From assembly GCA_949318235.1 (NCBI GenBank), contig OX439132.1, forward strand, positions 43,526,831 through 43,590,830: a stretch of 64,000 nt of DNA, given 5' to 3'. The notes beneath the pieces are model-generated. The model worked only from the letters and a program-made list of their open reading frames with translations. It searched no databases and was not told the DNA's origin. Within the stretch, counting starts at the first letter, position 1, and each line of letters starts with the position of its first letter. The translations under genes were made by a program, and so were the position numbers. Origin of the DNA: Ecdyonurus torrentis. Taxonomy: Eukaryota > Arthropoda > Insecta > Ephemeroptera > Heptageniidae. Positions 9,465 through 62,507 of this stretch are shown piece after piece.

Positions 9465-10265
9465 TTACATGACAGAACGTTTCTCAGAGAAAGTAGTGCG
9501 CTTGACTCTCACACTCTTGGAGACAGCTGATGATGATGACATGTCATCCATGTCCGATACTTCAGCAAGAACGGCTCCAGCTGCCGCACGACGTGCACTT
9601 CTTGCCTGAGCCCTCTGTGAGAGTTCCTCCATCTCATTATTAATCTCTGCAATTCTAGCACGAGATTGCTTTGCTCGAACACTGGCAGCTGCAGCATCAA
9701 AATTATCTTCTTCATTATGAGAATTGCCATTGTAAGCTCCATTTCTAGTTCCAACTTTAGTCCAACGTGACATTGAACTACTATCTTCTGAATCATCCAT
9801 GGCAAAAGTACGTTTCTTAAAGAAACTATCATCTTCTAATTCTGAAATTGCTCTCCTAGGTTTTCTGACTGTGAATTCATCTCTTTCATTAGTTTTAAGA
9901 CCTACTGAATCCATAAGACGGTCAGAGATGTCAAATCTTTGTTTGACTGCTGCACGACGAGCTACTTGGGTTTCCTCAAGGGCACGAGTTTCTTCCTCCA
10001 TGGCTGCACGTGAGGCGCGGATACGACGGATGGTCGCGCTAACGTCTTCTTCACCATTATCTGAGCCTGCTCCCACTGAGCGACCTCGAGGTGAGGACAT
10101 TGAAGTGGAGGTCAATGCGGGCTCTGCCACGGGGGTGCCTCGTGGAGGACGTTTGTCCAGAGCATCCATCATTGGTCGGTACATCCGCTCGCCCATCGTG
10201 TAGTTATAGTCGTACATCTTTGTGCGCGGGCGACTTAGGAGATAGCGGCGTGACATTTTGATATC
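9465..10265 (-). CDS. Putative muscle protein (myofilin-like?), single coding exon
   Basis: An open frame of 263 codons runs from ATG at 10256 to TAA at 9465, far longer and less biased than the spurious frames around it. A good splice acceptor (TATTATTTCAG) ends at 10266, ten bases 5' of the ATG, so a 5' UTR exon lies upstream. An AATAAA in sense lies near 9308-9313. The protein is highly charged. Residues 1-35 are rich in Arg and Tyr (RTKMYDYNYTMGERMYRPMM); residues 70-110 and 185-235 are Arg/Ala/Glu-rich and helix- or coiled-coil-prone; residues 145-180 are Ser/Asp-rich. There is no signal peptide or membrane segment. The Tyr-rich N-terminus followed by Arg/Ala/Glu helices recalls insect myofilin, a thick-filament-associated muscle protein, but this is from memory and weak. 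It is a real gene by length and splice context; the name is tentative. Confidence 0.7.
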   Translation of the reverse strand, partial: DIKMSRRYLLSRPRTKMYDYNYTMGERMYRPMMDALDKRPPRGTPVAEPALTSTSMSSPRGRSVGAGSDNGEEDVSATIRRIRASRAAMEEETRALEETQVARRAAVKQRFDISDRLMDSVGLKTNERDEFTVRKPRRAISELEDDSFFKKRTFAMDDSEDSSSMSRWTKVGTRNGAYNGNSHNEEDNFDAAAASVRAKQSRARIAEINNEMEELSQRAQARSARRAAAGAVLAEVSDMDDMSSSSAVSKSVRVKRTTFSEKRSVM

Positions 10266-13428
<3,163 letters not shown>

Positions 13429-23700: not shown

Positions 23701-24145
23701 CCACAATATAATATGATGTCCTGTTTACTGCAATAAAATAGAAATTTTAAACCAGAGATTGTGTATAATACAAGTTTTCTCCCCAGGTGGGACTACAAGT
23801 TTTAAGGGATAAATCATGTGTATGTATATGTCCAAATCTACTTGTAACAATTCAGTTTTCTTAATAATTATACATACAATTAATAAGTTTTAAAAAAATA
23901 TTTAGAAAATAGTTGGTAGAGATTAGAGTACGTTGAATTGAAAATTAATAAAACGCGAAAATTCTCTAATTGATATAGTAAATTGGGACTAGGATTCAAA
24001 TATTCTAGCTTTAGCTAGTTAAAAAATAGACGTTAAAGGGATGGAGGTAAAGTGTCAAAATAAAATACGATGTGCCTATAGCATCTCACGTTCTCACACT
24101 ACGTCAAAGACACAACATTATAAAACAGCATCAGACTTACTCTTT

Positions 24146-24190
24146 GCCTTAGACCGGTTTCGTCCTTTACCTAGGACTCATCAGTAAGGC
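24146..24190 (-). ncRNA. Type-I hammerhead ribozyme, unit 1
   Basis: On the minus strand: stem I strand GCCTTA, core CTGATGAG, stem II TCC/GGA closed by loop TAGGTAAA, core CGAAAC, then CCGGTC and TAAGGC, which pairs perfectly with GCCTTA. Stem III is only A-U, C-G, C-G with no loop, typical of minimal PLE/retrozyme hammerheads that are expected to act as dimers. Predicted cleavage follows the C of GTC (between 24152 and 24151). Confidence 0.92.
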
Positions 24191-24273
24191 TTGGCAGAGA
24201 GCTCTGTACAGCTAGAGATGGCTCACACCACATCTGCTAGCTGACTGAGCTGAGGAAGCAAGTGGCAGCCGCG

Positions 24274-24281
24274 TTTTTATA
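24274..24281 (-). promoter_or_regulatory. TATA box of the hammerhead unit (repeated in each unit)
   Basis: TATAAAAA on the minus strand, with CCAAT upstream and TCAGC/TCAGT initiator-like motifs 30-35 nt downstream. It is repeated at 25172-25179, 26068-26075 and 26966-26973. The spacing fits an arthropod Pol II core promoter feeding a transcript that reaches the hammerhead within about 100 nt. Motif-based only. Confidence 0.6.
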
Positions 24282-25043
24282 CGCGATGCCCCCGCAGCTG
24301 CACGCGCTGATTGGTTAAAATCGCGCGCGCAAACTCGGCTTGCTATTTAAAACCTCTCATCCTCACACTGTAATATAAAATCGTGTCTAAGAGGGGTGTA
24401 AGACAGGTAGCCAGCAAGCAATATGTGTCCTCCCTCACTTCCCAGAGTTCCCCAACTCTAGAAAGTTCGCGAGAGCACTATACGCCCGCCGACTGCACAG
24501 TATCGTGATTCACGCTATAGTTACATCGTTTTATATGTTGACACTGGGGTAGGAAAAGCAAAAAGATGATAGAGTAGGAGAGATAGAATAAATATTATGC
24601 GCTTTGGCATATAGTTTAATTAATTTAGTACGTGCTCTTATTGACGTTGGCAAGTAAAAGGGCCGAATAAAATATAAAAATGAAAGAATATTATTTACAA
24701 AAGCTTAAAATTAAAACAAAAAGATCGACTTAGCGATAATATGCGTATAAGGAAAAAACCATCGCGGTTAGAATTAATAAGTTTTAAAAAAATATTTAGA
24801 AAATAGTTGGTAGAGATTATAGAGTACGTTGAATTGAAAATTAATAAAACGCGAAAATTCTCTAATTGATATAGTAAATTGGGACTAGGATTCAAATATT
24901 CTAGCTTTAGCTAGTTAAAAAATAGACGTTAAAGGGATGGAGGTAAAGTGTCAAAATAAAATACGATGTGCCTATATAGCATCTCACGTTCTCACACTAC
25001 GTCAAAGACACAACATTATAAAACAGCATCAGACTTACTCTTT

Positions 25044-25088
25044 GCCTTAGACCGGTTTCGTCCTTTACCTAGGACTCATCAGTAAGGC
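25044..25088 (-). ncRNA. Type-I hammerhead ribozyme, unit 2
   Basis: Identical in core and stems to the unit-1 ribozyme, 898 bp further along. Confidence 0.92.
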
Positions 25089-25939
25089 TTGGCAGAGAGC
25101 TCTGTACAGCTAGAGATGGCTCACACCACATCTGCTAGCTGACTGAGCTGAGGAAGCAAGTGGCAGCCGCGTTTTTATACGCGATGCCCCCGCAGCTGCA
25201 CGCGCTGATTGGTTAAAATCGCGCGCGCAAACTCGGCTTGCTATTTAAAACCTCTCATCCTCACACTGTAATATAAAATCGTGTCTAAGAGGGGTGTAAG
25301 ACAGGTAGCCAGCAAGCAATATGTGTCCTCCCTCACTTCCCAGAGTTCCCCAACTCTAGAAAGTTCGCGAGAGCACTATACGCCCGCCGACTGCACAGTA
25401 TCGTGATTCACGCTATAGTTACATCGTTTTATATGTTGACACTGGGGTAGGAAAAGCAAAAAGATGATAGAGTAGGAGAGATAGAATAAATATTATGCGC
25501 TTTGGCATATAGTTTAATTAATTTAGTACGTGCTCTTATTGACGTTGGCAAGTAAAAGGGCCGAATAAAATATAAAAATGAAAGAATATTATTTACAAAA
25601 GCTTAAAATTAAAACAAAAAGATCGACTTAGCGATAATATGCGTATAAGGAAAAAACCATCGCGGTTAGAATTAATAAGTTTTAAAAAAATATTTAGAAA
25701 ATAGTTGGTAGAGATTATAGAGTACGTTGAATTGAAAATTAATAAAACGCGAAAATTCTCTAATTGATATAGTAAATTGGGACTAGGATTCAAATATTCT
25801 AGCTTTAGCTAGTTAAAAAATAGACGTTAAAGGGATGGAGGTAAAGTGTCAAAATAAAATACGATGTGCCTATAGCATCTCACGTTCTCACACTACGTCA
25901 AAGACACAACATTATAAAACAGCATCAGACTTACTCTTT

Positions 25940-25984
25940 GCCTTAGACCGGTTTCGTCCTTTACCTAGGACTCATCAGTAAGGC
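25940..25984 (-). ncRNA. Type-I hammerhead ribozyme, unit 3
   Basis: Identical core and stems, 896 bp from the unit-2 copy. Confidence 0.92.
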
Positions 25985-26837
25985 TTGGCAGAGAGCTCTG
26001 TACAGCTAGAGATGGCTCACACCACATCTGCTAGCTGACTGAGCTGAGGAAGCAAGTGGCAGCCGCGTTTTTATACGCGATGCCCCCGCAGCTGCACGCG
26101 CTGATTGGTTAAAATCGCGCGCGCAAACTCGGCTTGCTATTTAAAACCTCTCATCCTCACACTGTAATATAAAATCGTGTCTAAGAGGGGTGTAAGACAG
26201 GTAGCCAGCAAGCAATATGTGTCCTCCCTCACTTCCCAGAGTTCCCCAACTCTAGAAAGTTCGCGAGAGCACTATACGCCCGCCGACTGCACAGTATCGT
26301 GATTCACGCTATAGTTACATCGTTTTATATGTTGACACTGGGGTAGGAAAAGCAAAAAGATGATAGAGTAGGAGAGATAGAATAAATATTATGCGCTTTG
26401 GCATATAGTTTAATTAATTTAGTACGTGCTCTTATTGACGTTGGCAAGTAAAAGGGCCGAATAAAATATAAAAATGAAAGAATATTATTTACAAAAGCTT
26501 AAAATTAAAACAAAAAGATCGACTTAGCGATAATATGCGTATAAGGAAAAAACCATCGCGGTTAGAATTAATAAGTTTTAAAAAAATATTTAGAAAATAG
26601 TTGGTAGAGATTATAGAGTACGTTGAATTGAAAATTAATAAAACGCGAAAATTCTCTAATTGATATAGTAAATTGGGACTAGGATTCAAATATTCTAGCT
26701 TTAGCTAGTTAAAAAATAGACGTTAAAGGGATGGAGGTAAAGTGTCAAAATAAAATACGATGTGCCTATATAGCATCTCACGTTCTCACACTACGTCAAA
26801 GACACAACATTATAAAACAGCATCAGACTTACTCTTT

Positions 26838-26882
26838 GCCTTAGACCGGTTTCGTCCTTTACCTAGGACTCATCAGTAAGGC
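26838..26882 (-). ncRNA. Type-I hammerhead ribozyme, unit 4 (partial unit)
   Basis: Identical core and stems, 898 bp from the unit-3 copy. The partial unit keeps its ribozyme and promoter. Confidence 0.92.
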
Positions 26883-27240
26883 TTGGCAGAGAGCTCTGTA
26901 CAGCTAGAGATGGCTCACACCACATCTGCTAGCTGACTGAGCTGAGGAAGCAAGTGGCAGCCGCGTTTTTATACGCGATGCCCCCGCAGCTGCACGCGCT
27001 GATTGGTTAAAATCGCGCGCGCAAACTCGGCTTGCTATTTAAAACCTCTCATCCTCACACTGTAATATAAAATCGTGTCTAAGAGGGGTGTAAGACAGGT
27101 AGCCAGCAAGCAATATGTGTCCCAATTTACTATATCTACTATCTATCTATTTTACTCTAATCTCTACCAACTATTTTCTAAATATTTTTTTAAAACTTAT
27201 TAATTCTAACCGCGATGGTTTTTTCCTTATACGCATAATT

Positions 27241-27730
27241 ATACATACATAACACATAACATACATACATATCATTATCATGACACTATATAGTCCCTTT
27301 CGGGGTAAGCCAACAACATAGATGGTTTTTAGCCTTACCCAGTGATAGACCTCCACAACTTTCTATCCTGATATATTTTCCTTGCTTCCTTCAGATTCAT
27401 ATCTTGTTTCTTACAATTTCTTTTGCATCTCATACTACGTACATTCTTAATTTTTCAAACATCTTCCAACCACTTTAGACCATGATGTTTTAGGCCTGCC
27501 TCTATCTTTCCTTTTATCCACTCTGCTATGGAATACCTGTTTTGAAATTCTTTCACCACCCATTCTCTCAACATGACCAAACCACCGTGACACATTGCTC
27601 TCATACTTCTCAATCACCGTTTCTTTTACTCCACATTTCTCCATTACCCAAGTATTCCTAACCCTATCTAATCTTGTTTTACCACACATACTTCTAAGAA
27701 AACTCATACCAATCGCATTCAACCTATTGT
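27241..27730 (-). mobile_element. Non-LTR retrotransposon 3' end, copy 1
   Basis: The minus-strand frame (27447-27722) encodes the end of a LINE polyprotein: the RWFGHVERM motif, then RGRPKTSW, as found at the C-terminus of many non-LTR reverse transcriptases. The frame is broken after GRCLKN; the remaining LWRSITG segment lies in another frame. The 3' UTR (GGCTTACCCCGAAAGGGA in sense) ends in an ATGT-type tail. 5'-truncated and dead. It lies head-to-head with the next copy. Confidence 0.85.
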
Positions 27731-27885
27731 ATTGAATATAAGTTACAGAAACTAAAATAGACTGTATTTAAAATTCCTCTGACAAATTATTCTGTAATGT
27801 CAGAGGACCATGCTATATAGTTTGTTACTTTTGTGACCTCTTGATAAAAACTATTTCATTATTATTATTATTAAATCTGTGGAGT

Positions 27886-28278
27886 AAATAAATGGAGAAA
27901 TGTGGAGTAAAAGAAACGGTGACTGAGAAGTATGAGAACAGTGTGTTACGGTGGTTTGGTCATGTTGAGAGAATGGGTGATGAAAGAATAGCAAAGCAGG
28001 TATTTCATAGTAGAGTGACTAGAGTGGATGGAAGGAGAGATAGAGGCAGGCCTAAAACAACATGGTCTGAGGTGGTTGGAAGATGTTTGAAAAATAAGAA
28101 TGTACACAGTATGAAATGCAAAAGGAAATGTATGAAACAAGGCATGAGACTGGAGGAAGCAAGTGAAGTATGCCAGGATAGGAAGTTGTGGAGGTCTATC
28201 ACTGGGTCAGGATAAAACATCTGTGTTGTTGGCTTACCCCGAAAGGGATTATAGCGTCATGATATGTATGTATGTATT
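27886..28278 (+). mobile_element. Non-LTR retrotransposon 3' end, copy 2
   Basis: Plus-strand fragment with an intact C-terminal frame (27892-28215, RWFGHVERM, RGRPKTTW, LWRSITG). It is followed by GGCTTACCCCGAAAGGGA and a TATG-repeat tail. 5'-truncated, so no reverse transcriptase core or endonuclease remains. Closely similar to 42088-42453. Confidence 0.88.
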
Positions 28279-28664: not shown

Positions 28665-29049
28665 TTAAAGCCCTTGTCAACTTACTTTTCTATTATTTAG
28701 AATACTAGATTGATAATTGCCATACCTCAGTATCCATGAATTAGACACCACCAAGTTGATTTTGTATTTATTTTCATTTTGACGGTTATTTCACTCATCT
28801 GACGTCACAATGTACTGCCGCCAATCACAGTCACTGCTCTGGTCACATGATAAATTTAAGCCCCTCCCTTAAGTTCTTTGCAGGCCATCATGGCCCCATC
28901 GGTACAATGTGACGTCAGATGCATGAAATAACCGTCAAAAAGAAAATAAATGAAAATAAATGAAAATAAATGTGTTATGGATGATAAGGTATGGTAATTA
29001 TCAATCTAGCATTCTAAACAATAAAAAAGTAAGTTGACAAGGGCTTTAA
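28665..29049. repeat. TTAA-flanked MITE family F
   Basis: A 377-bp foldback (28669-29045) between two TTAA copies, with matching ends AGCCCTTGTCAACTTAC and GTAAGTTGACAAGGGCT and arms of about 150 bp. The inner hairpin includes CTGACGTCACA and TGTGACGTCAG. piggyBac-like by its TTAA flanks only. Confidence 0.82.
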
Positions 29050-29772: not shown

Positions 29773-32700
29773 CTAGAATGTGTTATTGAGGAAATTGTCA
29801 TCATCATCGCTGGGTTCCAAGTGTGTCTTGAGAAATTCCTCCACAGTATCTGTGTCCCATTTGTCAATAGCAAGTACCTGCAGATCAAACCAACAAAATA
29901 CAAATTACTATATCGATCTTTTTGCATCAAGATGAAGCTTCTACGCTTTACAAATACTTTACTAATACTGTACTACAATTTACTGTCAAACCAACAAAAT
30001 ACAATTTACTATATTACACCCCTAATTAAAAAAATCCTTTTGTGAATAATTGAAGCATAGTATCACACTTAAGGTCTGTGCACAAGCTGGAAACTTATAA
30101 AAAAATTATTATGTGTTTTATCTCATAAAATTGATCTTTACAGCCTAAAAAACACAAGGAATTCTCCTAATTTATATTAAAAATGTTTACAGTGTTTTTT
30201 GGGGTCTGGAGGGGTGTGTTGTGCTCAAGACTTAAGTTCTTTAACCCTTTAAAGTGATTAATTTAGGTTACAATCAATCTGCTGTGCTTAAAATTAAATT
30301 GAATGGCATTAAACACAACCTTTCAATTTCACCCCGTTGCCGGGGTGAAATTGAAACCTTGGTTTTTAATTTTTTTTTTTTTTGAAAGGTAATTATCGTC
30401 CTGGTTCCGCTATAATGTCCGATGTCCATTTGACCTTGAAAAATATTTTTTGCTGCAAATGACCTGAAATGGGAAAATCCAAAATTTGGGGTCGGTCAGA
30501 CGGTTTTTATTTTTTCAAGGTCATTTGGACATCGGACATTATAGCGGAACCACGACGTTATGCTTAATTTTTTTTATTGTAGTTGGATTTTATAGTACTA
30601 AGGGAGTTGCATCTTGTCAATTTTTTTCATCTTCCAAAAAAAAAAAATTATTTCAAAAGTTACAGCACAGAGTAGGTCCAAAACCTTTCCATTTCACCCC
30701 GGTTGACTGTATTGATACATGCTAAACCTAAGAATGTACTTTTCATTTAAATACCAAATATTTATTGTTTGGACACTACATAATCTAAAGGAGAAACCAG
30801 CAAACTTTTTTGTTTTCTTCCTCATTTTGTTATTGAAAAATTAGGGAATGGGATAAATGCTGTTTGCAAACCCTGTTCTCTTGCACCAAAAAAATGCGCA
30901 TTCCATTTGATTAACTAATGTTGATTGTCATTTTAGGAGCAGAGAACAGGGTTTACAAACAGCATTATATAGTATGAGCTTACACATACAGGGATGAGAG
31001 GTAAACAAAATATTCTAGCCCAAGCCTGCAAGTGTAAGCTCATACAATCTCCCATTCCCCAATTTTTCATAATCTATCTATGTGTTTTTCAATCAAATCT
31101 TTTAAGTATCAACTATTGCATAGACGATTTTTTCTCTAACATTTATCATTTTAATTACGTTTAAAAAAAAGAATTAGAAAATAGTTGGCAGAGATTAGAG
31201 CACGTTGAATTGAAAATTAATAAAACGCGAAAATTCTCTAATTTAAATAGTAAATTGGGACTAGGGATGCAAATCATTCTAGCTTGCGCTAGATAAAAAT
31301 GGACGTTAAAAGGGATGAGGGGTATTAGTGCACAATATTATATTACGGTGTGAGGATGAGAGGTTTTAAATAGCAAGCCGGGTTTGCGCGCGCGATTGTT
31401 CAACCAATCAGCGCAAGCAGCTACGGGGGCATCGCGTATAAAAACGCGGCTGCCACTTGCTTCCTCAGCTCAGTCAGTTAGCAGATGTGGTGTGAGCTAT
31501 CTCTAGCTGTACAGAGCTCTCTGCCGAGCCTTACTGATGAGTCCTAGGTAAAGGACGAAACCGGTCTAAGGCCAAGAGTAAGTCTGATGCTGTTTTATAA
31601 TGTTGTGCCTTTGATGTAATGTGAGAACGTGAGATGTTAGGTATATCGTACGGTATTTTACATTGACACTATACCCCTCATCCCTTTTAACGTCTATTTT
31701 TATCTAGCGCAAGCTAGAATGATTTGCATCCCTAGTCCCAATTTACTATTTAAATTAGAGAATTTTCGCGTTTTATTAATTTTCAATTCAACGTGCTTTA
31801 ATCTCTACCAACTATTTTCTAATTATTTTTTTTAAACGTAATTAATACCAACCGCGATGGTTTTTTCCTATATATTATATTTATCGCAATGTCGATCTTT
31901 TTGTTTTAATATTTAAGCTTTTGTAAATAAGATTCTTTCATTTATATTGTATTCTCGGCCCTTTTTACTTGCCAACGCCAATAAGAGCACGTGCTAAATT
32001 AATTAAATTAAAAATATGCCAAAGCGCATATATTTTTATCCTATCTCTCCTATTTCTATCATCTTTTTTACTTTTCCTACCCCGGTGTTAATATATTAAA
32101 CGATGTAACTAGCTTAATCACGATACAGGCGGCCGGCAGGCGCATTGCTCTCGCGAACTTTCTGGAGTTGGGGAACTCTAGGAAGTGAGGGAGGGCACAT
32201 GTGGCTTGCTGGCAGCCATTCTTGCATCCCTCTTAGTGCACAATATTATATTACGGTGTGAGGATGAGAGGTTTTAAATAGCAAGCCGGGTTTGCGCGCG
32301 CGATTGTTCAACCAATCAGCGCAAGCAGCTACGGGGGCATCGCGTATAAAAACGCGGCTGCCACTTGCTTCCTCAGCTCAGTCAGTTAGCAGATGTGGTG
32401 TGAGCTATCTCTAGCTGTACAGAGCTCTCTGCCGAGCCTTACTGATGAGTCCTAGGTAAAGGACGAAACCGGTCTAAGGCCAAGAGTAAGTCTGATGCTG
32501 TTTTATAATGTTGTGCCTTTGATGTAATGTGAGAACGTGAGATGTTAGGTATATCGTACGGTATTTTACATTGACACTATACCCCTCATCCCTTTTAACG
32601 TCTATTTTTATCTAGCGCAAGCTAGAATGATTTGCATCCCTAGTCCCAATTTACTATTTAAATTAGAGAATTTTCGAGTTTTATTAATTTTCAATTCAAC

Positions 32701-35700
32701 GTGCTCTAATCTCTACCAACTATTTTCTAATTATTTTTTTTAACGTAATTAATACCAACCGCGATGGTTTTTTCCTATATCATTTCCATTTATCATTTTG
32801 TTATTATATATATATTTTTTTTCCAGGTTCTAGTTTTTAAAATTATAAATTATCAAACTTAACATACAATTTACCTTGAACTCTATATTATATTGAATAT
32901 ATTATCAAAGGAAAGCATAGGAAAACCAACAACAAAATCTGTAGCTAAATGAAGATATTAATGTCACAAACAACACAAATTTGACAGAAAAGTGTAGGGC
33001 CTTACCATCATGAAAAAGAGTCCCATAGTTTGGTGAAAATCTTGCTCGCACAGATATAAAAAAACTAACACATTGGAAATATTTCCGCTATAAACTCTAA
33101 GAGAGATGGAGTGTGTTATGCCTTCATCAGTCCTAACAGACTTGGAGAGAAATTATGAATGAATGATGACTTATGAATGATGGCTCTGCTGGTGTTACAT
33201 TGTGGTATATACAGGTGTAGTGAAGGTGGGGGAAGTGTGGTAGGAGATGATGAGCAAGAATAAGGGAGGGAATGTAGGAATAAGGGATCGGGAGAGTAGT
33301 GAGGGGGATAGGAGTGGGATGCATGATGAAGGCATAACACACTTCATCTCTCTTGGAGTTTATTGCCAAAATATTTCCAATGTGTTACGATTTTTTTTTT
33401 ATTATTTTTTTTATCTGTGCTAGCAAGATTGTCACCAAACTATGGGACTCTCTCAAATATGGTAACGCCCTTGCTGCTTTCTCCTACCTTTTTCTTTCAA
33501 ATTTATCATACTTAACCATGATGGTTTATTTTCCTTAACATATCTCACAGTGAACACAAATATTTACATTGATAATTGTGCCATCAAGACCTTCACCTAG
33601 CTATGGACTTCATCATGGTAAGGCACTTGTTTGTTTTCCTATCCTTTCCTTTGATAACAAACTGATATGGTTATTTCTTTCTCAACAATTAATCAATCTG
33701 TATATTGAATATTTAATATTCTTGATATATTACAGTAATTACACAATGTGAAATATAAAACTAAAACATTTTAAATTTAACTACTACGGTAAATATTGAT
33801 GTTGTAGCAGAAAATATGTGTATCACTCTGGCTGCACCAGAAGGGCAAACTTGCATTTGGTTCCTTTCAATGCTGCGTGCGCATCAAACATAAGCCTAAC
33901 ATGTAAAACCAAGTGCAAATACGCCCTTTGTTTTACTGGACAAAAATGCAAGTACGCCTTTTGAAAGACGACCTTGAAATGCAAGTATGCCTTTTTGGTG
34001 CAGCCAGAGCAGTATGTATCCTGTTGTTGTTGTTGTTGTTTTTAATCACATATCTTGTATATCTTGTACATATCTTGTTTTAGTCACCGGAAGCAAAAGG
34101 TGTATCTTGTTTCCGAACATTATGTAGACGGCACTCCCTAGTTACACATTTTGCTTCATGTGATAAAAACCAAAATACTCACATTTTTTTGCTGCAACAA
34201 CGATATTAAATGACATGTTCACTAAATTAAATTTCTAATCTGTTTTACTATTTCTGCAATGTAAAAATTTACATCTCATTCATATTTAAACTGACCTCCT
34301 GAACATTTCCATCCTTGTCCATAAGCTTGATTACAGGATCCAAGCCTCTCACGTAACGAATCTGAAGATTGTTGAACTGAGAAGGACGTTCACTCTTGAT
34401 AAAAGCTATATATAAAAAGGAAGTGAGTAAACTTTTGCTACAAGTTGCAAAGAATTTAACACCTTACCTTGTATCTGAGGATAAGCTCCAAATTTACATG
34501 TGCAAACTTCCAATCGTGCGCTGTGGTAACGTTTTACAAAATCTTTGCTTTCGTCTCGATGACAACATTGTTTACAATGATCTCTGTAACATAGAATTAG
34601 CACAATAATTTTAATATGATAGGACATTATATTATTGTCATTAGCTAGATAATAAGTCTATTATATATTACTGGCTAGTAAAGTAACAACTGTTTTGAGG
34701 CAGGCTTTAATTACACAATTTTGCTTACATCCTCTTCCTTTCAATGTACTACACATTCAAAGTAAGTAGAAATAGAAGTGGATGTAAGTGACATCGATTA
34801 ATTAAAGTCAACCTCAAAACAGTTTTACTGTTAATACGTATCCAATACACCGACAGCCTCGCGGCTATTATATGTATCAACAACATCTGCAAATCTTGCC
34901 TGGTCACACAAAATAGGTACCCTATCTACAAATCTCGCCATTCCACACAAAGTAGGTATCTCCTGTGTTACCTGAACCTATATTGTGTCGCGGCGAGATT
35001 TGTAGATACCTATTTTGTGTGACCAGGCAAGATTTGCAGATACATAAAATAGCCGCAAGGCTATCGACACTCTGGTAAGCTATATCTTCAACATTAAAGA
35101 AATGCCACGTAAATAATAACAATATCTCTATCTATAGCAGCAAATCAGTTCTTCCAAATAAAGACGTCATAGTGTCGTAGTAGTGTTTTTTTGCCATGCC
35201 ACTATGAGCTCTATGAGCTCTATGAAAAGAACAGGTAAGATTCAAGGTCCCATCACAAAAAAACTCTACAGTGACGTTTCTATCCGGAAGACTTGAAATG
35301 TACTGTTAAGTACGGTGGCTTGCTTTTCCTTAAAACAAAATATCATAAAATTACATTAGTATTTCTCATTTTTTTTCTAAATAACGTTTTACTTATTATT
35401 CAACATCTCTATCCAGCCTATTTTCCAATCATGGGCAGTTTTACTTTGTAAGAAACGAATACTTTCCCACATCAGTACTTGTTCCCAACATCTTGCATCT
35501 TAAATTCATGATTCTTTCTCGCTATGTAATTTGATTTTATGATTTTCTTGTTTAATAATAATAATAATACATAAATAGAAAAAGGTTTGGGTATGTGCAT
35601 TTAAAATGTTAAAGATTGTGTTTTGTGTTATACATACATATTCACATATGTATGCACTGTACCGTACATACATGAACATGGCACCAACTTTATCAAACAT

Positions 35701-46159: not shown

Positions 46160-49100
46160 GAGCAAGGAAACAGAGGATATGAAAATCATTACATATTTCA
46201 CTGTGTTGCATTTTTGTTTTAAGGCTGTTTTCCATAAATAAATCAAATGGTAATGCAATATTAATGCCTCTTTGTTATGTATTGACAGCCTCTTCAATGT
46301 ACCCAAATGTTTCTGACGATGAGGATGAGGACCAAAGATGTCCAATCTGCTTGGAAAGTTGGAGTGGTACTGGAGAACATAGATTGTGCTCCCTTGCATG
46401 TGGTCACTTGTTTGGCAAGAGCTGCATTGAGAGGTGGATTAAGAGGGGAGTGGCAGGCAAGCGTTGTCCAAAGTGCAATCACCCGTGCAAGAAGAGTGAC
46501 ATCAGACCTCTGTTTGCAACAGCAGTGAAAGTAAAAGAGGGGGCAGAGGAAGAGAAGTTACAACAGCAGTTGCAGCAAGCACTCAAGGTATACACCATAC
46601 CTGCACCATACCATATTTTTTTTGATTGACTACATGAGCAATTATTAAATAACTCTGTATTTGTTTGTGCAGGAAAAGCGAGAGTTAGAACTTCAATTGA
46701 TGAGAACTGAACTGAGAGTGAAGCAACTTCAGCAGAAAGAGGTGGCTGGTAGTGTAGCTCCTGTCCCAAGAATTGCACCACCTAGCGTGTCTGGTCAGTT
46801 CATATCAATATATTGACTCTTCAATTAAATATTAGGCAATTAAAAGCATTAAGGAATACTTTACTTGTAGTGGAAGAAATGCAAACCCATCTTGCAATTT
46901 TTTTTTCTTTTTTTTTTACAAAATACTTTATAAATAAATTGAAAGAAAAGGATAGGAGAAAACCAGCAAGGGCCTTACCATAGTGAAGAGAGTCCCATAG
47001 TTTGGTGAAAATCTTGCTAGCACAGATATAAAATAACTAACACATTGGAAATATTTCGGCAATCGACTCCAAGTGAGATATGGAGCGTGTTATGCCTTCA
47101 TCAGTCCTTACAGACTCAGAGAGAAACTATCTGAGTCTGTTTAGAAACTATCTGAGTTTCTCTCTGAGTCTGTAAGGACTGATGAAGGCATAACACACTC
47201 CATATCTCTCTTGGAGTCGATTGCCGAAATATTTCCAATGTGTTAGTTATTTTATATCTGTGCTAGCAAGATTTTCACCAAACTATGGGACTCTCTTCAC
47301 TATGGTAAGGCCCTTGCTGGTTTTCTCCTATCCTTTTCTTTCAATTTATCATACCTAACCGCAATGGTTTATTTTCCTTAATATACAAATACTTTATAAA
47401 AATATTAATCAAGAATCAATAAAAAATAGTAATGAAGCCCATACTTACATAATTATTACCACTTGAAAGGTAGCACTGATTCTCTTTATCATAATAAAAA
47501 TATAGTTAGGGTATAATTTTAGTCAATTAATTTTATGTTTTATTAAATTATAATGCAATAAATTTAAATAATTTGCAGCAGCTAAGCAAGGATTTCTTTA
47601 CATTTTATAGAGTACATAAAGTATATAAAACACAATCAGAAATATGTCATTGTTAAAATTAGATATTTCTTGATTTTATTGGAGCTTTATTGTATTTTAT
47701 TATAAGCATTAAGTTTTTAATTGTCATTTCAATTTATTTAACTACAGTCAGCCAGGGTGAAAATGAAAACGTGGGGGGAAATTGAATGCCAATAACAGAC
47801 TTTGCTTTCAAAATGCTCTGTGTCTACAGTTCTGAGAAGCTAAGATTGCTTCAAGGTCATTTGAAAGTGGATTAATCAATTATTTGTACAATACGCCATT
47901 TTGGGTGATAATTGGAGTTTCAATTACACCCCGCATTTTTAATTTCACCCTGGTTGCCTGTATTGTACTATTAACAATCAATTTAAGAGGGGGGGGGGGG
48001 GAATCGCATTTGGGATTAATCTTAAGGTGAAGGATAGAAATGTAAGCCTTACCACAGTAGAAGTTCTATGGAGAGGCTGTGGTCTCATGTAGTACAGAGA
48101 CTGTGTGATGTGAAACATAGACCTCTCCATAGAACGTCTACTATAGTAAGGTCTTTGCTGGTATTACTATCCTTTCTCTTTACTGTACAACATAGTATTG
48201 AGTTCTATAATAATGTGTTGTTGTTGTTTTGTTACAGCTTCTGGTAAGTACATGTTTAGGCTAACCAAGGAAGTGTCATTAGGAGAGAAAGGGGGAGGTC
48301 GAGTGATGAGTTACTGTCCTTGGGAAACTCAGCTTAGTGTGTCTCATGAATTCAAACTTTGCGGGTAAGCAAGAGCTGCTATAGTCATACAGTTAGCATA
48401 TGAATGTGGAGGTGACATTTTGTTTTTTCTAGATTTGGAGTGACACGTGTTTTCTGTGAACGAGATTTCACTTCCTCTGCTACTTCCATCCTGCATGGTA
48501 AGACAATTCGTGACATGGCGTATTTTCCTGGACAGCAGCCAAACTTGTTACTCACTGCCTCTCTGGACCGCAGTGCCAAGCTCATGGACTATCGTTGTAA
48601 TCACACAGCTCAAACATACAAGGTTAGTTTTATGTTCATGCACAACATATTCACAGAAGCCGACTTGTTAGTCACCAAACATGATTATATGATTGTATTC
48701 TGCTCATCATAATGTAGAAAAAGAGAAGCTTTAGGGACGTTTAAAAATAATTTTGGTTTTATTTTGAATTGTTTGAATTATACACTACTGTTTACCTATT
48801 CATTCAATAAACACACTTGGTTTACAAAATACAGTAATATAAATTGTTATAATATTATTAATTTTAAAATTGAATGCATCATTTCTGTGCAATACCGTTA
48901 AGACTAATACAGCGATTAGAACAATTCAATTGATCATATTGCTCGCCACATAAATTGCATTTACACGAAGTACCATACTCGCGGTACTCTTTAATTATGC
49001 AAATCTTGTGGTGAAAACCATGCTCTGCAAATCTAGTAAAAATGTGTCTATTTTTACAGTTTAGATTTTTCTAATTTACATTTTGAAAGGCCAGGGTATT

Positions 49101-51816
49101 ATAAAATAAAAGGCTGATGACCTCAAACTTGTCAACTCTTCTCTTGATAAGCGTCTCAAAAAACGGGGGTTATATGCAATTTGAATTGGGTTTAAAGTTC
49201 CACAACAAAGAATTACTTCCCTGTCAATTTATAAAATAATTTACATTTTGTGAATTTAGATTATTACTGTTTAAGTTTTTATTTTAATTATTATTATGGA
49301 TTTGGTTTTCTCTTATGAATGTGAAGACTAGTGCATACTTCCATCTCTCTCTCTACAATCACTCTCTGATCAATCACTATTAGAATCCAGCTACCACACT
49401 TTGTGTGGAAAACTGCACATTCCGCAGCAGCTGACTCAGAACCACCCAAGTAATGCCAGGCTGGGCTTCATATCCTAATCTTTAAAGCACGATTCTTTAT
49501 TATTTTTAAATTATTTTTTAAAGTGTTGATATTTCCTTACTGTTTTATGAATAAAATATGTTAAGGAAAGTAAACCATCGCGGTTAGGTATGATAAATTT
49601 GAAAGAAAATGATAGGAGAAACCAGCAAGGGCCTTACCATAGTGAAGAGAGTCCCATAGTTCAGTGAAAATCTTGCTACTACAGATATAAAAAACTAACA
49701 CTTTGGAAATATTTCGCCAATAAACTGCAGCCCTCTTGGAGTTTATTGCCGAAATATTTCCAATGTGTTAGTTTTTTACATCTGTGCTAGCAATATTTTC
49801 ACCAAACTATGAGACTCACTTCACTATGTTAAGACCCTTGCTGGTTTCTCCTATCCTTTTCTTTCAAATTTATCATGTTTTGTGAATAATTAGAAAAATA
49901 TACATACAGTATTTTGATTGTATTTTTTGTACAGTTAGGCTTTAGAATGGGTCAGATCTATGCATTTGTCATGGGTAAACATTGGCTTATAAAGTTGTGA
50001 TTTCATTGAAGATTAAGATTATATGAAAGAAAAGGACAGGAGAAACCAGGATAGTAAAGAGAGTCCTATATTTTAGGGTAGGAGAAACCAATGATGCCAC
50101 GATGAGATCCGTAGCTATGTGAAAATCTTGATGGCACAGGTTACACAAATAAACAAGTCTTGTGTAACCTGTGCCATTAAGATTTTCACCAAGCTACGGG
50201 CCTTATCAAGGTAAGGCGCTTGTTGGTTTCTCCTATTCTATTATTTGGTTATATATTCAAATTGAAATGGTTTTAAACTTTCCTAATTAATAATACATAG
50301 TCCTATCGTTTGGGGAAAATCTTGTTAGTACAAAGATAATAAATGTATTAAAGATAGATTTTGGCACTAAGCTACAAGAGAAAACAATGTGTGCATTCAT
50401 CAGTTGTCACAGACTGTGAGAGAAACTACAAAATAGTTAATTCATAGTTTCTCTTGGAGTCTGTATTACATCTGTGCTTGCAAGATTTTATCCAAACAAT
50501 TAGACACTACAAGATGGTTTTTTTTTTTTTTTTTTTTTTTGCTTAAATTTATTATATTAACCATATAATATCCGTAATATCTCCTATTATTATATTGGCT
50601 AATATATTGCTGTGTATTTCAGACGAACTTTCCTCTGTGGAGTTGTTGCTGGGATATGACAGGCACCGCTGACAACTGCCATCTTGTATCTCTCGGCATG
50701 ACAACAGGAGAAGTAGCTCGCTTCGACATGCGCAAGATCTCACTTGAACCCATTGCGATACTAAACAAAAAAGTGGGTCAAGTTGTGGATCCATCTCCAG
50801 TGACGTCTTTAGTATCTGTACCTTCAGGATACTGTCCATCACTGCCTCGAGGGGGTCTCATTGCTGCTCAACTTAACTCTTGTCGTATTTTTGTGGGAGA
50901 TGATGACGTGGAGGGCACACTTCTTCCATTCCAGGCACCTTTCTTGTGTCTTAGGTAAGTATCTAACTTCCATAAAGGAAAGTCCATGCTCAGTTTGACT
51001 ACATTATGCCCCCTTTAAGTCAACAGCTGAGTGGTTGTGATGATATTATTCTATTACCTCTTGAAAAGGGTCCATGGCTAACTTTAAACTTGAATTTATG
51101 CAGAAATATACAAAGTTGAAGAGTTTCTGTAGCCCACTCAAGTTTTACTAGTTCAGGAAATTTAATTGAGGATTATCCCTTTGCTAGAGTTACATACAAT
51201 ACAGTATGTATTCTGATTTATTATGATTTTACCCAAATACACCTCACCCAGGTCAAGTTGATAGCAGCCAGCTCACAGAATTATGACATAATGTCTGAAT
51301 TATGTCATGTATTTAAGCAAAGTGCAACCAAAATATGACTACAGTATAGTATAAGTCTAGATAAATACATATTGAACTTCCCTCACCTTGTCATATGTAA
51401 TTATTTTGTATTTGTGTTACAGATCAGAGGGCGTATCTGGACATCTTCTTGTATCGTCACGTGCTAACAGTGAACGTCCCACAACTCATACCGTGTACAG
51501 AGTATCAAGAGCATCTAATGTCCCTCCTGAGGAATTATTTGAACCAGTACTTAGTTTACCTGGAGCTAATAGACAATCACTGATGACAAGACCGTGTATT
51601 GCCTCGTTCAGTGAAACAGAACTTATCTTAGCTGCCAATCAGGAGGAAAGTAGGACGGTACCTGTGTGGTCAGTGACCTCAGCATCTCAAGTAGCTTCCC
51701 TCCCGACAGCTGAAGATGTGTTAGACATTTGTAATATTGGAGTTAACAATGCGAACTATTTAGGACTTGTGACAGACAAAAAATTATCAATCTATCAGTT
51801 TCAATTAAAAGTGTAA
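41910..51816 (+). CDS. RFWD3: E3 ubiquitin-protein ligase RFWD3
   Basis: Eleven exons join in one frame: 41910-42015, 43157-43189, 43898-44022, 45005-45073, 45170-45374, 46289-46587, 46673-46793, 48238-48364, 48433-48622, 50623-50954 and 51423-51816 (2001 nt, 666 residues). Residues 1-180 are Ser/Asp/Glu-rich and disordered. The RING is at 197-242 (CPIC, CGHLFG, CPKC), followed by a Gln/Glu/Leu coiled coil at about 255-305 and a WD40-like C-terminal region from about 320 (FGV, LLLTASLDRSAKL, LDICNIG, LSIYQF). This order is that of RFWD3, the ligase that ubiquitinates RPA and RAD51 at stalled forks and in Fanconi interstrand-crosslink repair. An in-frame TGA precedes the ATG. Intron 5 has a GC donor (CAG|GCAAGT); all others are GT-AG. 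Exon 2 is only 33 nt. The exon-5 acceptor at 45169 is the least certain border. Sense polyadenylation signals lie near 51857 (ATTAAA) and 51929 (AATAAA). Introns 1-9 are full of foldback elements. Confidence 0.93.
42088..42453 (+). mobile_element. Non-LTR retrotransposon 3' end, copy 3
   Basis: In RFWD3 intron 1, sense orientation. The C-terminal frame is intact (42077-42385, RWFGHVERM, RGRPKTSW, LWRSITG), followed by the shared 3' UTR and a TATG tail. Truncated at AAAGAAACGGTG, slightly further in than copy 2. Confidence 0.87.
42776..42994. repeat. MITE family J, copy 1
   Basis: About 219 bp with ends AATGGAGGTTATCGGTTTA and TAAACCGATAACGTCCATT, in RFWD3 intron 1. Copy 2 (45905-46112) lies in intron 5 in the opposite orientation. 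Confidence 0.82.
43268..43705. repeat. Family I-like foldback in RFWD3 intron 2
   Basis: Left GAAACCAACAGGTGCC...GAAGATCTTGATGGCATAG pairs with right CTGTGCCATCAAAATCTTC...GTTAGTTTTC. The arms are separated by about 300 bp. Related to 50027-50232. Confidence 0.6.
44296..44737. repeat. TTAA-flanked MITE family D
   Basis: A 434-bp foldback (44300-44733) in RFWD3 intron 3, with TTAA on both sides. Ends AGGCATAGTCAACAATGGC and GCTATTGTTGACTACCCCT continue into arms of about 170 bp (GATCATTGTG; CTCCTGAAATCGC; TTGCTCT). piggyBac-like by flanks. Confidence 0.82.
45483..45605. repeat. MITE family K, copy 3
   Basis: In RFWD3 intron 5. Ends AATGCTGTTCATAAACCCTG and AGGGTTTACAAACAGCATT. Interior GCGCATTCCATTTGATTAAC and GATCGTCATTTTAGGAGCA are shared with 30856-30966. 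A 38-base T run follows. Confidence 0.8.
45905..46112. repeat. MITE family J, copy 2
   Basis: Ends AATGGAGGTTATCGGTTTA and TAAACCGATAACCTCCATT. The interior is the reverse complement of the intron-1 copy (42776-42994), including AAATTTAAATGAGAAATAC. Confidence 0.82.
46921..47400 (+). mobile_element. Family I foldback retroelement with 14-bp target duplication
   Basis: In RFWD3 intron 7. The element (about 46935-47386) is flanked by exact AAATACTTTATAAA copies (46921-46934 and 47387-47400). It is a near-perfect palindrome centred near 47133 (arms of about 190 bp) with a one-sided 3' tail ending CCTAACCGCAATGGTTTATTTTCC. That tail resembles the CCGCGATGGTTTTTTCC end of the hammerhead units. 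Each arm has CTGATGA and GAAA motifs with pairing spacers (see findings). Confidence 0.78.
47743..47962. mobile_element. Tc1/mariner-type MITE (family H), TA duplication
   Basis: 216 bp with ends CAGTCAGCCAGGGTGAAA and TTTCACCCTGGTTGCCTG, flanked by TA on both sides, in RFWD3 intron 7. TA duplications with CAGT-type ends fit Tc1/mariner MITEs. Confidence 0.72.
48033..48182. repeat. Small family I-like foldback
   Basis: Arms GGATAG...GCCTTAC...AGAAGTTCTATGGAGAGG and CCTCTCCATAGAACGTCTAC...GTAAGG...CTATCC, in RFWD3 intron 7 just before exon 8. Confidence 0.7.
48623..49541. other. RFWD3 intron 9, left part
   Basis: AT-rich. No repeat family recognised here apart from short A/T runs; the patch at 49330-49470 is less AT-rich but shows no exon. 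Confidence 0.45.
49542..49889. mobile_element. Family I foldback retroelement
   Basis: In RFWD3 intron 9. Approximate 13-bp duplication GTTTTATGAATAA / GTTTTGTGAATAA at 49542-49554 and 49877-49889. The left end holds AGTAAACCATCGCGGTTAGG, i.e. the long tail is on the left here. Arms share CCTTACCATAGTGAAGAGAG and its complement, and CTCTTGGAGTTTATTGCCGAAA. Confidence 0.68.
50027..50525. repeat. Two diverged family I-like foldbacks
   Basis: In RFWD3 intron 9: 50027-50232 has arms AAAATCTTGATGGCACAGGT and ACCTGTGCCATTAAGATTTT; about 50300-50525 is more decayed (AAAATCTTGTTAGTACAAAG; CAGACTGTGAGAGAAACTA) and ends at a T run. Confidence 0.6.
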
Positions 51817-54011: not shown

Positions 54012-56143
54012 TTACAAGCAGTCGTGTTTCAACATTGCGAGGAGTGATTGAAAGTGTAAACTACATTTCTTGCAGGTACAAGTTGTTTCAATTTCTTGAC
54101 ATTCCTCATCATTCAGTTCTCCTGCCAAGTTGCTGTCGGACTTCTCATCAGCATCTACAACACAACAAGAAAATTAAAACAAGTTCAATGTACGGTATAA
54201 ACACAAAGAACTCACCAGATGAACTTCCATTGTTGTCTTCCAGCGAAGATTCTGGATCTTGTGCTGCGATGGCTGTCCAATCTGAAGATTTGCTGGCGTC
54301 CACTTCTTGCGAGCTAGACACGGCATCTACAACACAACGAGAAAATTAAAACAAGTTCAATGTACGGTATAAACACAAAGAACTCACCAGATGAACTTCC
54401 ATTGTTGTCTTCCAGCGAAGATTCTGGATCTTGTGCTGCGATGGCTGTCCAATCTGAAGATTTGCTGGCGTCCACTTCTTGCGAGCTAGACACGGCATCT
54501 ACAACACAACGAGAAAATTAAAACAAGTTCAATGTACGGTATAAACACAAAGAACTCACCAGATGAACTTCCATTGTTGTCTTCCAGCGAAGATTCTGGA
54601 TCTTGTGCTGCGATGGCTGTCCAGTCTGAAGATTTGCTGGCGTCCACTTCTTGCGAGCTCCTGGGGTTTGCACCAGTCCTGTTTTCCATGGACTCCTGTT
54701 CTATATCTCCAACTTCCTCTGCCATGTGTTGTTTCTGATGGATACCTTGTTGCTTGGACAGAACTTTAACAATAAGAAAACCCTCCTGGTCTTCTTGTTC
54801 TAATCGGAAGCCTATGTATAGAATTTTTTTTTTTTAATATTCATATATTACTTTTGACCACTCAAAAGAATAGGTAGAAAACTTACTGTATCTGTGCTTA
54901 TCTGGGTGCATATTTTTAAAATGATTATCTATCCCGATCATAGTATTGAAACGTTGGGCACAGAAGCCACACAAGTATGCATCACATTTCATTACCAGCT
55001 CTAGTACATCCTCCAACTTTGGTTTAGTATTGGCCTCTAATATAGATTCTGTTGTTACTACAGATTTGCCTGACTCCACTGAAATAAAAAGTTCAAATAA
55101 ATCTACAACTGTTTAAATATGTAATCCATATTTAATAAATATAAATGTGTGTGTGTGTGTATTGCACCCCCTCCCCGCCCTCCTAAGCCTCTACCTAACC
55201 CACTGAATATTTCCGTTCTCAGGTGAAACTTGTAATTTTGGGAGCTTTTCTCCGCAACATTTTCAATTTTTTTTTTTTTTTTTTTTTTTTCCATCAGCTA
55301 CATCACTGATAAGGTGAACAAAATTGTATGTGGCGATATATGACGTCTTTGGTGAATTTCTTTAAGCTGCGCGACCTTGGCCAAAACTTTTCCCGGAGCA
55401 ACTATGACCTCTTATATATGGACCTTGAGTGGGTAGATAGCGGTGATTTTTAAATTATTATAAATACAGGGTGTCCACACCAAAAAATGATCATGTTTTT
55501 TTTTTTTTTTTTTTTGACAAATTTGAAATAAAATTATTATAATGTTTGAAAAATATGCATGCAAATATGGTCATTCAAGGAGTAGACCAGAAGAAATAAG
55601 CATCAAAATCAAATCTCTTGATGGAACTTATGTACACAAATAAGTTTAGTTTTTCTCTCAAAACCCGCAACTGTAGCTCCGTAGCAGTGATCAGAAAATT
55701 TCGATTTATGCAACCCGAACAACATTTTCATACCAATTTTTGCATGTTTCTGACGTCAGAAACATGAATAGTCACGCAAATTGCATACTTTAAAGAATGC
55801 AACGTACAGTACGTTCAAAAAGCATGTTATTTTGTAACGTTTGTGTGTTGAAAGATTAATATACATACATACACGTTACAAATATAATAAATATCATACC
55901 GCGGTAGAAAATTACCATACGCAGTGTGGCAAATATTTTTGTAATATATATCATAAACCCCTGCACAAAATTGAATTATATATTATCTATATTATCTATA
56001 CACATAAAATAAAAAAATATACCTCGATCCTTGGCATCCAATGCGGCTTGGACGACGGAACATTGTTTTATCATATCGGTAGCCCACATGGCCCCTCGTG
56101 AAACGCAAAACTCTCTGCTATTATCTGAGTCGAGCGGCTCCAT
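54012..56143 (-). CDS. Zinc-finger protein with tandemly repeated exon
   Basis: Six exons join in frame: 56143-56023, 55078-54887, 54811-54560, 54498-54388, 54326-54216 and 54154-54012 (930 nt, 309 residues); every intron is phase 1 and GT-AG. An in-frame TAA precedes the ATG. A C2H2 finger lies at residues 77-98 (C77-x2-C80-x12-H93-x4-H98). A second, atypical one near the C-terminus (CKKC...KHDC, about 290-308) has a Cys in the last ligand position. Exon 3 contains a GFLIVKV segment and the first copy of a Ser/Asp-rich 37-residue repeat (SSQEVDASKSSDW...EDNNGSSS). Exons 4 and 5 are further copies of it. No named family recognised; likely a nucleic-acid-binding protein, which is inference. 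A T run at about 53898-53915 with TTTAAT gives a possible sense ATTAAA signal. Confidence 0.85.
54155..54670 (-). repeat. 172-bp exon+intron tandem triplication
   Basis: A period of exactly 172 bp: exon 111 nt plus intron 61 nt. Copies start at exon ends 54216, 54388 and 54560 and are almost identical, including the introns. The third copy differs at its upstream end, where it is fused to unique exon-3 sequence (GAGCTCCTGG rather than GAGCTAGACA). Confidence 0.9.
55079..56022 (-). other. Intron 1 of the zinc-finger gene
   Basis: It contains a short GT tract (about 55146-55160), two T runs (55268-55290; 55496-55515) and an ACAGGGTGTCCACACC motif near 55467 that resembles a MITE end; the partner end was not found. 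Confidence 0.5.
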
Positions 56144-62214: not shown

Positions 62215-62507
62215 GTTTAAACTCGCCGCCCGTACCGTATCCAACACGCACTAGCTGTCCCATGCGTGCATTGATTCGGCCCGTGCCGTATCCAACACGC
62301 ACTAGTTGCCACATATGCCGTATCCAACACGCACTATAGTTGTCCCATGCGTACGTATTGGCTCGGCCCGTGCTCTATCTAACACGCACTAGTTGTCCAA
62401 TGCGGGCATTGGCTCGGCCCTTGCTGTATCCAATACGCATTTGTTGTCCCATGCCTATATCGACTACGCCCGTGCCGTATCCAACACGCATAGGTTGTCC
62501 CTGCAAA
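62215..62507. repeat. Minisatellite, unit about 51 bp
   Basis: Five to six diverged copies of a GC-rich unit containing GTATCCAACACGCACTAG, TTGTCCCATGCG and GGCTCGGCCCGTGC. A minus-strand frame through it is not a gene. Confidence 0.8.

Follow-up and report, generated by a model that had tools for sequence, protein, structure and literature searches.

Tandem hammerhead ribozyme units in the mayfly Ecdyonurus torrentis: a probable non-autonomous Penelope-type retroelement integrated as a concatemer

RESULTS

Two insertions of one repeat family

We analyzed a window of 64 kb from the mayfly Ecdyonurus torrentis (assembly GCA_949318235.1, contig OX439132.1, positions 43,526,831 to 43,590,830 of the forward strand); positions given below are those of the window. 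It contains two insertions of a single family of tandem repeats with a unit of approximately 0.9 kb, in which every unit carries a type I hammerhead ribozyme motif. The features of the two insertions, which we call insertions 1 and 2, are listed in Table 1. We argue below that the family is probably a non-autonomous retroelement of Penelope type.

Table 1. Features of the two insertions. Start sites 1 and 2 are the proposed starting points of reverse transcription.
Feature	Position	Strand	Description and basis
Insertion 1	23878-27234	-	Three full units, one 5'-truncated unit and inverted right arm; self-alignment
Target duplication, left, insertion 1	23864-23877		ATAATTATACATAC; exact 14-bp match with 27235-27248
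Target duplication, right, insertion 1	27235-27248		Leading AT also fits the element sequence
Unit 1	23878-24771	-	894 bp; 3'-most in the sense direction; outer end at start site 1 (...TTAATT)
Unit 2	24772-25669	-	898 bp
Unit 3	25670-26565	-	896 bp
Unit 4	26566-27122	-	557 bp; 5'-truncated; promoter-like block and hammerhead retained
Inverted short arm, insertion 1	27119-27234	+	116 nt; copy of the 3' region of the unit
Tail extension past start site 1, insertion 1	27206-27234	+	CTAACCGCGATGGTTTTTTCCTTATACGC; alignment of the four ends
Putative promoter, unit 1	24251-24315	-	CCAAT box, TATAAAA, initiator-like TCAG
Type I hammerhead, unit 1	24146-24190	-	Rfam RF00163, 30 bits
Type I hammerhead, unit 2	25044-25088	-	Rfam RF00163, 30 bits
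Type I hammerhead, unit 3	25940-25984	-	Rfam RF00163, 30 bits
Type I hammerhead, unit 4	26838-26882	-	Rfam RF00163, 30 bits
Insertion 2	31153-32786	+	Same family, 1.6 units; inverted short arm, then direct units
Target duplication, left, insertion 2	31140-31152		CATTTATCATTTT; exact 13-bp copy at 32787-32799
Target duplication, right, insertion 2	32787-32799		
Inverted short arm, insertion 2	31153-31329	-	177 nt; begins near the same site 1; inverted-repeat pair 98% complementary
Hammerhead, insertion 2	31528-31572	+	45-nt sequence identical to that of insertion 1
Hammerhead, insertion 2	32436-32480	+	45-nt sequence identical to that of insertion 1
Tail extension, insertion 2	32751-32780	+	30 nt, followed by the filler CATTTC
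Unit anatomy, upstream part	sense positions in the 898-bp unit		CCAAT 457, TATAAAA 491, initiator-like TCAG, predicted start 521
Unit anatomy, downstream part	sense positions in the 898-bp unit		Hammerhead 582-626, predicted cleavage after 620, start site 1 at 898

Insertion 1 consists of 3.6 units, which are 99.6-100% identical to unit 2. There are zero substitutions among them, and they differ only by 2-bp TA insertions or deletions (indels) at two sites. Reading the units from left to right, site X has the states -,+,-,+ and site Y the states -,+,+,+, while the short inverted arm at the right end of the insertion is - at site Y; the first-copied unit of both arms carries the - state. An earlier reading made from the sequence alone (the original prediction) had described four near-identical 0.9-kb tandem units on the minus strand, enclosed by one 14-bp duplication. 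The coordinates and counts of the units were correct, with the qualification that only three of the four repeats are full and the fourth is 5'-truncated, and the duplication is exact. The inverted right end and the whole of insertion 2 were absent from that account. We note that Tandem Repeats Finder, with its period limit of 500, is blind to a period of 0.9 kb.

The sequence ATAATTATACATAC occurs only twice in the window, both strands considered. When 200,000 random pairs of points with this spacing were drawn, 42 of them had a flanking direct repeat of at least 14 bases, and many of these presumably arise from microsatellites. At the distance that separates the ends of insertion 2, a repeat of at least 13 bases was found in 1 of 200,000 pairs. 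In both insertions the target duplications sit in AT-rich DNA.

The unit of insertion 2 is 86.2% identical to that of insertion 1 over 915 alignment columns, and across both insertions the units range from 894 to 908 bp. The two units of insertion 2 differ from each other at 4 substituted positions and 3 gaps over 563; from this divergence, insertion 2 is probably the older of the two insertions. A search of the window with a profile of the unit found nothing beyond pieces of these two insertions.

Inverted arms and common end positions

Each insertion has a long arm, formed by the direct units, and a short inverted arm. An alignment of the four ends indicates that in both insertions one end stops after ...AATT, at the same position of the unit to within approximately 4 nt, and that the other end extends some 30 nt further (29-31 and 30 nt, respectively) through CCGCGATGGTTTTTTCC. 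The roles of the arms are swapped between the insertions. Site 1, the inner site, is the start of the long arm in insertion 1 and of the short arm in insertion 2; site 2, the outer site, is the start of the short arm in insertion 1 and of the long arm in insertion 2. The long and short arms span the same region of the template, and therefore either two RNA molecules or two units of one RNA would have been copied. On inspection of the sequence, the arms of insertion 1 meet at GTCC, with 4 nt common to both, and those of insertion 2 have approximately 1-2 nt in common. Neither poly(A) nor a simple-repeat 3' end was found at the ends of the insertions.

The short arm of insertion 1 matches the three unit-unit junctions at 97-99% over 85-92 nt, with a further match of 18 nt. 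Between these lies a foreign stretch of approximately 17 nt, CTACTATCTATCTATTT (27136-27152), which substitutes for approximately 42 nt of the unit and matches no unit of insertion 1 at that place; another template or stuttering of the reverse transcriptase (RT) are candidate sources for it. In insertion 2, a filler of 6 nt (32781-32786) lies between the tail and the duplication, and resembles the start of the duplication.

Hammerhead ribozyme

The Rfam model Hammerhead_1 matched all four units of insertion 1 on the minus strand, each with an E-value of 1.3e-4 in a search of 3.5 kb. A default scan of the whole window listed no hammerhead, because the score of these matches is below the gathering score of 34. 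The catalytic core, a six-pair stem I and a five-pair stem II were all found, in agreement with the original prediction of a complete type I hammerhead in each unit. Stem III has a loop of only 2 nt in the Rfam alignment, and its sequence ACCGGU is self-complementary. The 45-nt hammerhead sequence is invariant in 6/6 units of the two insertions. Within the window, the pattern CTGATGA-N10-30-CGAAAC-N1-12-GTH is confined to these six units, and a far looser pattern of the core has 14 matches, of which 8 fall outside them. An exact 33-base hammerhead pattern gave no match in viral or in bacterial and archaeal contigs, a result that carries little weight given the nature of those sets.

In folding calculations the isolated 45-mer does not adopt the hammerhead form by itself: the probability that stems I and II form is 0.001, and the minimum-energy structure of the monomer is not a hammerhead. 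For two isolated 45-mers, RNAcofold gave a double hammerhead as the minimum, at -31.9 kcal/mol. When flanking sequence was included, outer pairs of stem I appeared, for example CUCU with AGAG; these are secondary-structure folds, and contacts between loops 1 and 2 lie outside them.

Promoter-like block and coding capacity

Upstream of the hammerhead, unit 1 contains a CCAAT box, a TATA box and an initiator-like (Inr) element, and the same arrangement is present in units 2-4, with CCAAT at 25213, 26109 and 27007. From consensus sequences we read this block as a putative promoter. TATA and Inr at this spacing were found only in the six units within the window, using a pattern that was picked after the unit had been viewed. 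The stretch from the promoter-like block to the hammerhead is the part of the unit that is conserved between the two families of units: 6 of its 170 columns differ, compared with 120 of the 745 columns outside it (Fisher p 3e-6), where the limits of the block were set after the alignment had been viewed. In a scan with windows of 240 columns, the observed conservation was reached in 0/5000 shuffles.

When a unit was joined to itself, the longest frame from stop to stop was 71 aa, and the unit thus contains no open reading frame (ORF) for a telomerase-like RT and a GIY-YIG endonuclease, as would be carried by an autonomous element. In a Pfam search of 10 of the 34 ORFs of at least 68 aa between 20 and 36 kb, the lines for DicB, TEN_TERT (E 0.03), Pmp3, BT1 and Sep15_SelM were all below the cut-offs and were taken as chance.

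Surroundings in the window

Two C-terminal fragments resembling long interspersed nuclear elements (LINEs), for example RWFGHVERMGGERISKQVFHS, adjoin insertion 1 in opposite orientation (27447-28215); they were identified by eye and have no Pfam match. Foldback structures are present at 28665-29049 (73-nt arms, 90%) and at 30394-30560 (50-nt arms, 92%), and a foldback element of approximately 435 bp, similar to a miniature inverted-repeat transposable element (MITE), lies at 33017-33451, with nested inverted arms of 47 nt (94%) and 72 nt (89%). Tandem repeats were found at 54151-54659, where three copies of a 172-bp repeat at 99% overlap an ORF of 112 aa, and at 62235-62501, where diverged repeats of 51 and 87 bp surround TCCAACACGCACTAG.

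An RFWD3-like gene occupies 46183-51816; one of its exons encodes a RING finger, and two others match WD40_RFWD3. A frame of 270 aa at 9465-10277 contains no Pfam domain and is related to uncharacterized proteins of mayflies and damselflies. It has five matches, the best at 70%; among the others are Ephemera danica (60%), Cloeon dipterum (44%) and Hetaerina americana (39%).

DISCUSSION

Proposed integration of a multi-unit RNA

We propose that the family is a non-autonomous, ORF-less retroelement of Penelope type, and that in each insertion a multi-unit RNA was probably integrated once, with both target strands priming at two fixed internal sites. This is supported by the finding that two insertions with different duplications, of 14 and 13 bp, have both of their ends in common. 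Insertion 1 is best explained by a single integration event, because one duplication surrounds the array, there are zero substitutions between the units, and the ends have the anatomy described above. Together with the like ends of the second insertion, these observations support the original prediction that a hammerhead retroelement had integrated as a concatemer. The link to Penelope elements is stronger than that account recognized, because of the inverted arm and the extension of approximately 30 nt.

The course of events that we infer is as follows. A unit of approximately 0.9 kb would consist of the promoter-like block, a hammerhead that follows the predicted start by about 60 nt, and a region for the start of reverse transcription about 280 nt past the cleavage site, with two start sites some 30 nt apart. 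A transcript spanning several units would be taken up in trans by a Penelope-type endonuclease and reverse transcriptase, which would cleave AT-rich DNA with a stagger of 13-14 nt. Synthesis of cDNA would then begin inside the RNA from both cut strands, from one of them at site 1 and from the other at site 2. One cDNA would become long (3.6 or 1.6 units) and the other would end after 116-177 nt, and the two would be joined at a short homology. The expected product is a concatemer that has a target duplication, a single short arm in inverted orientation and, at one of its ends, a tail of approximately 30 nt. Cleavage by the hammerhead may work best when two ribozymes pair through a common stem III, an arrangement that a tandem RNA would supply.

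The concatemers begin at unit position 342 in insertion 1 and at approximately 381-387 in insertion 2, upstream of the predicted start of transcription at 521, and therefore the template would have been either a read-through RNA of several units or a circle. The original prediction had allowed for a circular or a multimeric RNA, and a multi-unit template is consistent with our results. In the retrozyme style of mobilization, a self-cleaved and ligated monomer circle would be copied round repeatedly by the RT and the concatemeric cDNA integrated. We regard this as possible but somewhat unlikely. It would account for the zero substitutions among units, a circle would permit a concatemer that crosses the hammerhead and begins upstream of the promoter-like block, and hammerhead repeats of animals are reported to form circles (PMC7229834). 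The units are larger than those of retrozymes (170-400 bp), however, and the states of sites X and Y, including that of the short arm, would require several RT slips or sequencing errors. Circular folding of the units gave z-scores of -5.0 and -5.2 for the sense strand and -2.5 and -1.8 for the antisense strand; we give this no weight, because 4 of 21 control windows fell below -5.3 and 7 of 21 below -4.4. We therefore lean to a linear multi-unit RNA from a non-uniform array, from which the X and Y patterns follow directly, and we call this a lean because sequencing error at TA tracts may account for the differences.

A second alternative is that unequal exchange or slippage lengthened a shorter insertion once it was in place, in which case the 3.6 units were never one cDNA. 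The alternation of site X would fit a duplicated block of two units, growth between the duplications would spare the ends, and insertion 2 contains only 1.6 units. Site Y, however, breaks the two-unit pattern, and expansion is not needed to explain a second tandem copy, which is normal for full-length Penelope insertions (PMC8969392). We consider such growth unlikely as the origin of the array, in keeping with the original prediction, which had preferred one integration to unequal crossing over; the single duplication and the anatomy of the ends agree with that preference, and a later change in unit number by unequal exchange is possible. Satellite DNA, which would form long arrays without target duplication, does not fit what lies in the window, namely two discrete insertions with duplications.

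Inverted 5' pieces and target duplications are also known with LINEs, and LINE-like fragments, identified by eye, adjoin insertion 1. An enzyme of LINE type could thus have moved the RNA, the inverted arm being the result of ordinary twin priming, but we regard this as improbable. Twin priming of LINEs usually yields non-overlapping pieces with variable second start sites, whereas here the direct and inverted arms were copied from one region of the template, the two insertions agree in the two places from which the arms start, and the ends lack the 3' signatures looked for above. The inverted ends and duplications might also suggest a DNA transposon, or a MITE, bounded by long terminal inverted repeats. 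This reading is very improbable, given the extension of the inverted arms by approximately 30 nt at one end only, the internal tandem units with a truncated outer unit, and the unequal lengths of the duplications.

Several points weigh against Penelope-type integration of a multi-unit RNA. The case is built on two insertions, both within one window of 64 kb. No RT or GIY-YIG family was identified by Pfam in the 10 ORFs searched out of the 34 of at least 68 aa at 20-36 kb. The foreign stretch in insertion 1 and the filler in insertion 2 are not predicted by the model. The double hammerhead was the minimum for 2/2 families with flanks of 0, 5 and 10 nt, for 1/2 with 20 nt and for 0/2 with 40 nt, and because the minimum is lost with longer flanks we describe this mode of cleavage as plausible rather than secured. 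Finally, integration itself may not require the ribozyme, because hammerhead mutants of the Penelope element of the anole left insertion in vitro unchanged, and its ribozyme cleaved only when protein was added (PMC11167929).

We also put forward, more tentatively, a general proposal: that enzymes of Penelope type mobilize retrozyme-like hammerhead RNAs in trans, in a manner that the two insertions would record; that a pair of enzymes primes both strands on two template copies at two fixed sites, with either strand able to run through several units; that the uncut multi-unit RNA is the true template; and that tandem copying is selected for because it provides the paired ribozyme.

Comparison with known systems

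In the rotifer Adineta vaga, an inverted pseudo-long terminal repeat (pLTR) lying next to a Penelope element completes it together with a tail of 31 bp; there is a duplication of 9 bp, and the pLTR contains TATA and Inr (PMC3846280). For the anole element, the purified protein cleaves and extends both strands, with a preference for ATT, and synthesis starts at two adjacent internal sites in the RNA that are not homologous to the target; its tail of 30-40 bp is the stretch between these two sites, a signature described as unique to Penelope elements (PMC11167929). In the same work, the main template is suggested to be RNA that has not been cut, which agrees with our lean to a linear RNA. The insertions described here resemble A. 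vaga Pen2a and anole PAc in having partial-tandem direct repeats (pLTR), a 5'-truncated outer unit, an inverted short arm, a tail of approximately 30 nt at one end, an AT-rich target and short duplications. As in elements of Penelope/Poseidon type, TATA, Inr and a minimal type I hammerhead lie upstream of the region where reverse transcription would start (PMC3846280, PMC11167929, PMC7761336). They differ in that the Penelope elements described in those passages have an RT-GIY-YIG ORF between the repeats (approximately 840 aa in A. vaga Pen2), whereas here a non-coding repeat of 0.9 kb is present 3.6 and 1.6 times.

The very short, self-complementary stem III, with its predicted cleavage in pairs, is a further likeness to the dimer-cleaving hammerheads of Penelope elements and to those of newt and axolotl. 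Lunse et al. are said to have described small dimer-cleaving hammerheads of Penelope elements in 2017. That such hammerheads have been published is indicated by citations in PMC7761336, PMC6466107 and PMC10085705. Short non-autonomous Penelope elements are mentioned in heliconiine butterflies, and are thus likewise non-autonomous and from insects; the passage concerned is silent on hammerhead, concatemers and tail (PMC6685494). We make no claim that ORF-less hammerhead concatemers of Penelope type are previously unreported.

The non-LTR retrozymes of metazoans (coral, mussel and axolotl) are likewise built of tandem units that are non-coding and contain one type I hammerhead apiece. They occur as oligomers from dimers upward, with target duplications when these are present (PMC7229834). 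Their units are of approximately 150-450 bp, compared with 894-908 bp here, and our units have the minimal stem III of Penelope type, together with an inverted arm and tail that are not mentioned in the relevant passages of PMC7229834. That source leaves open which enzyme mobilizes the hammerhead repeats of animals, and goes no further than to call autonomous Penelope-like elements "a strong candidate". A non-coding hammerhead concatemer with an inverted arm and a tail makes this question testable in one species, and the two insertions with swapped arms would be a natural record of the internal initiation from both strands that has been shown in vitro for the anole element.

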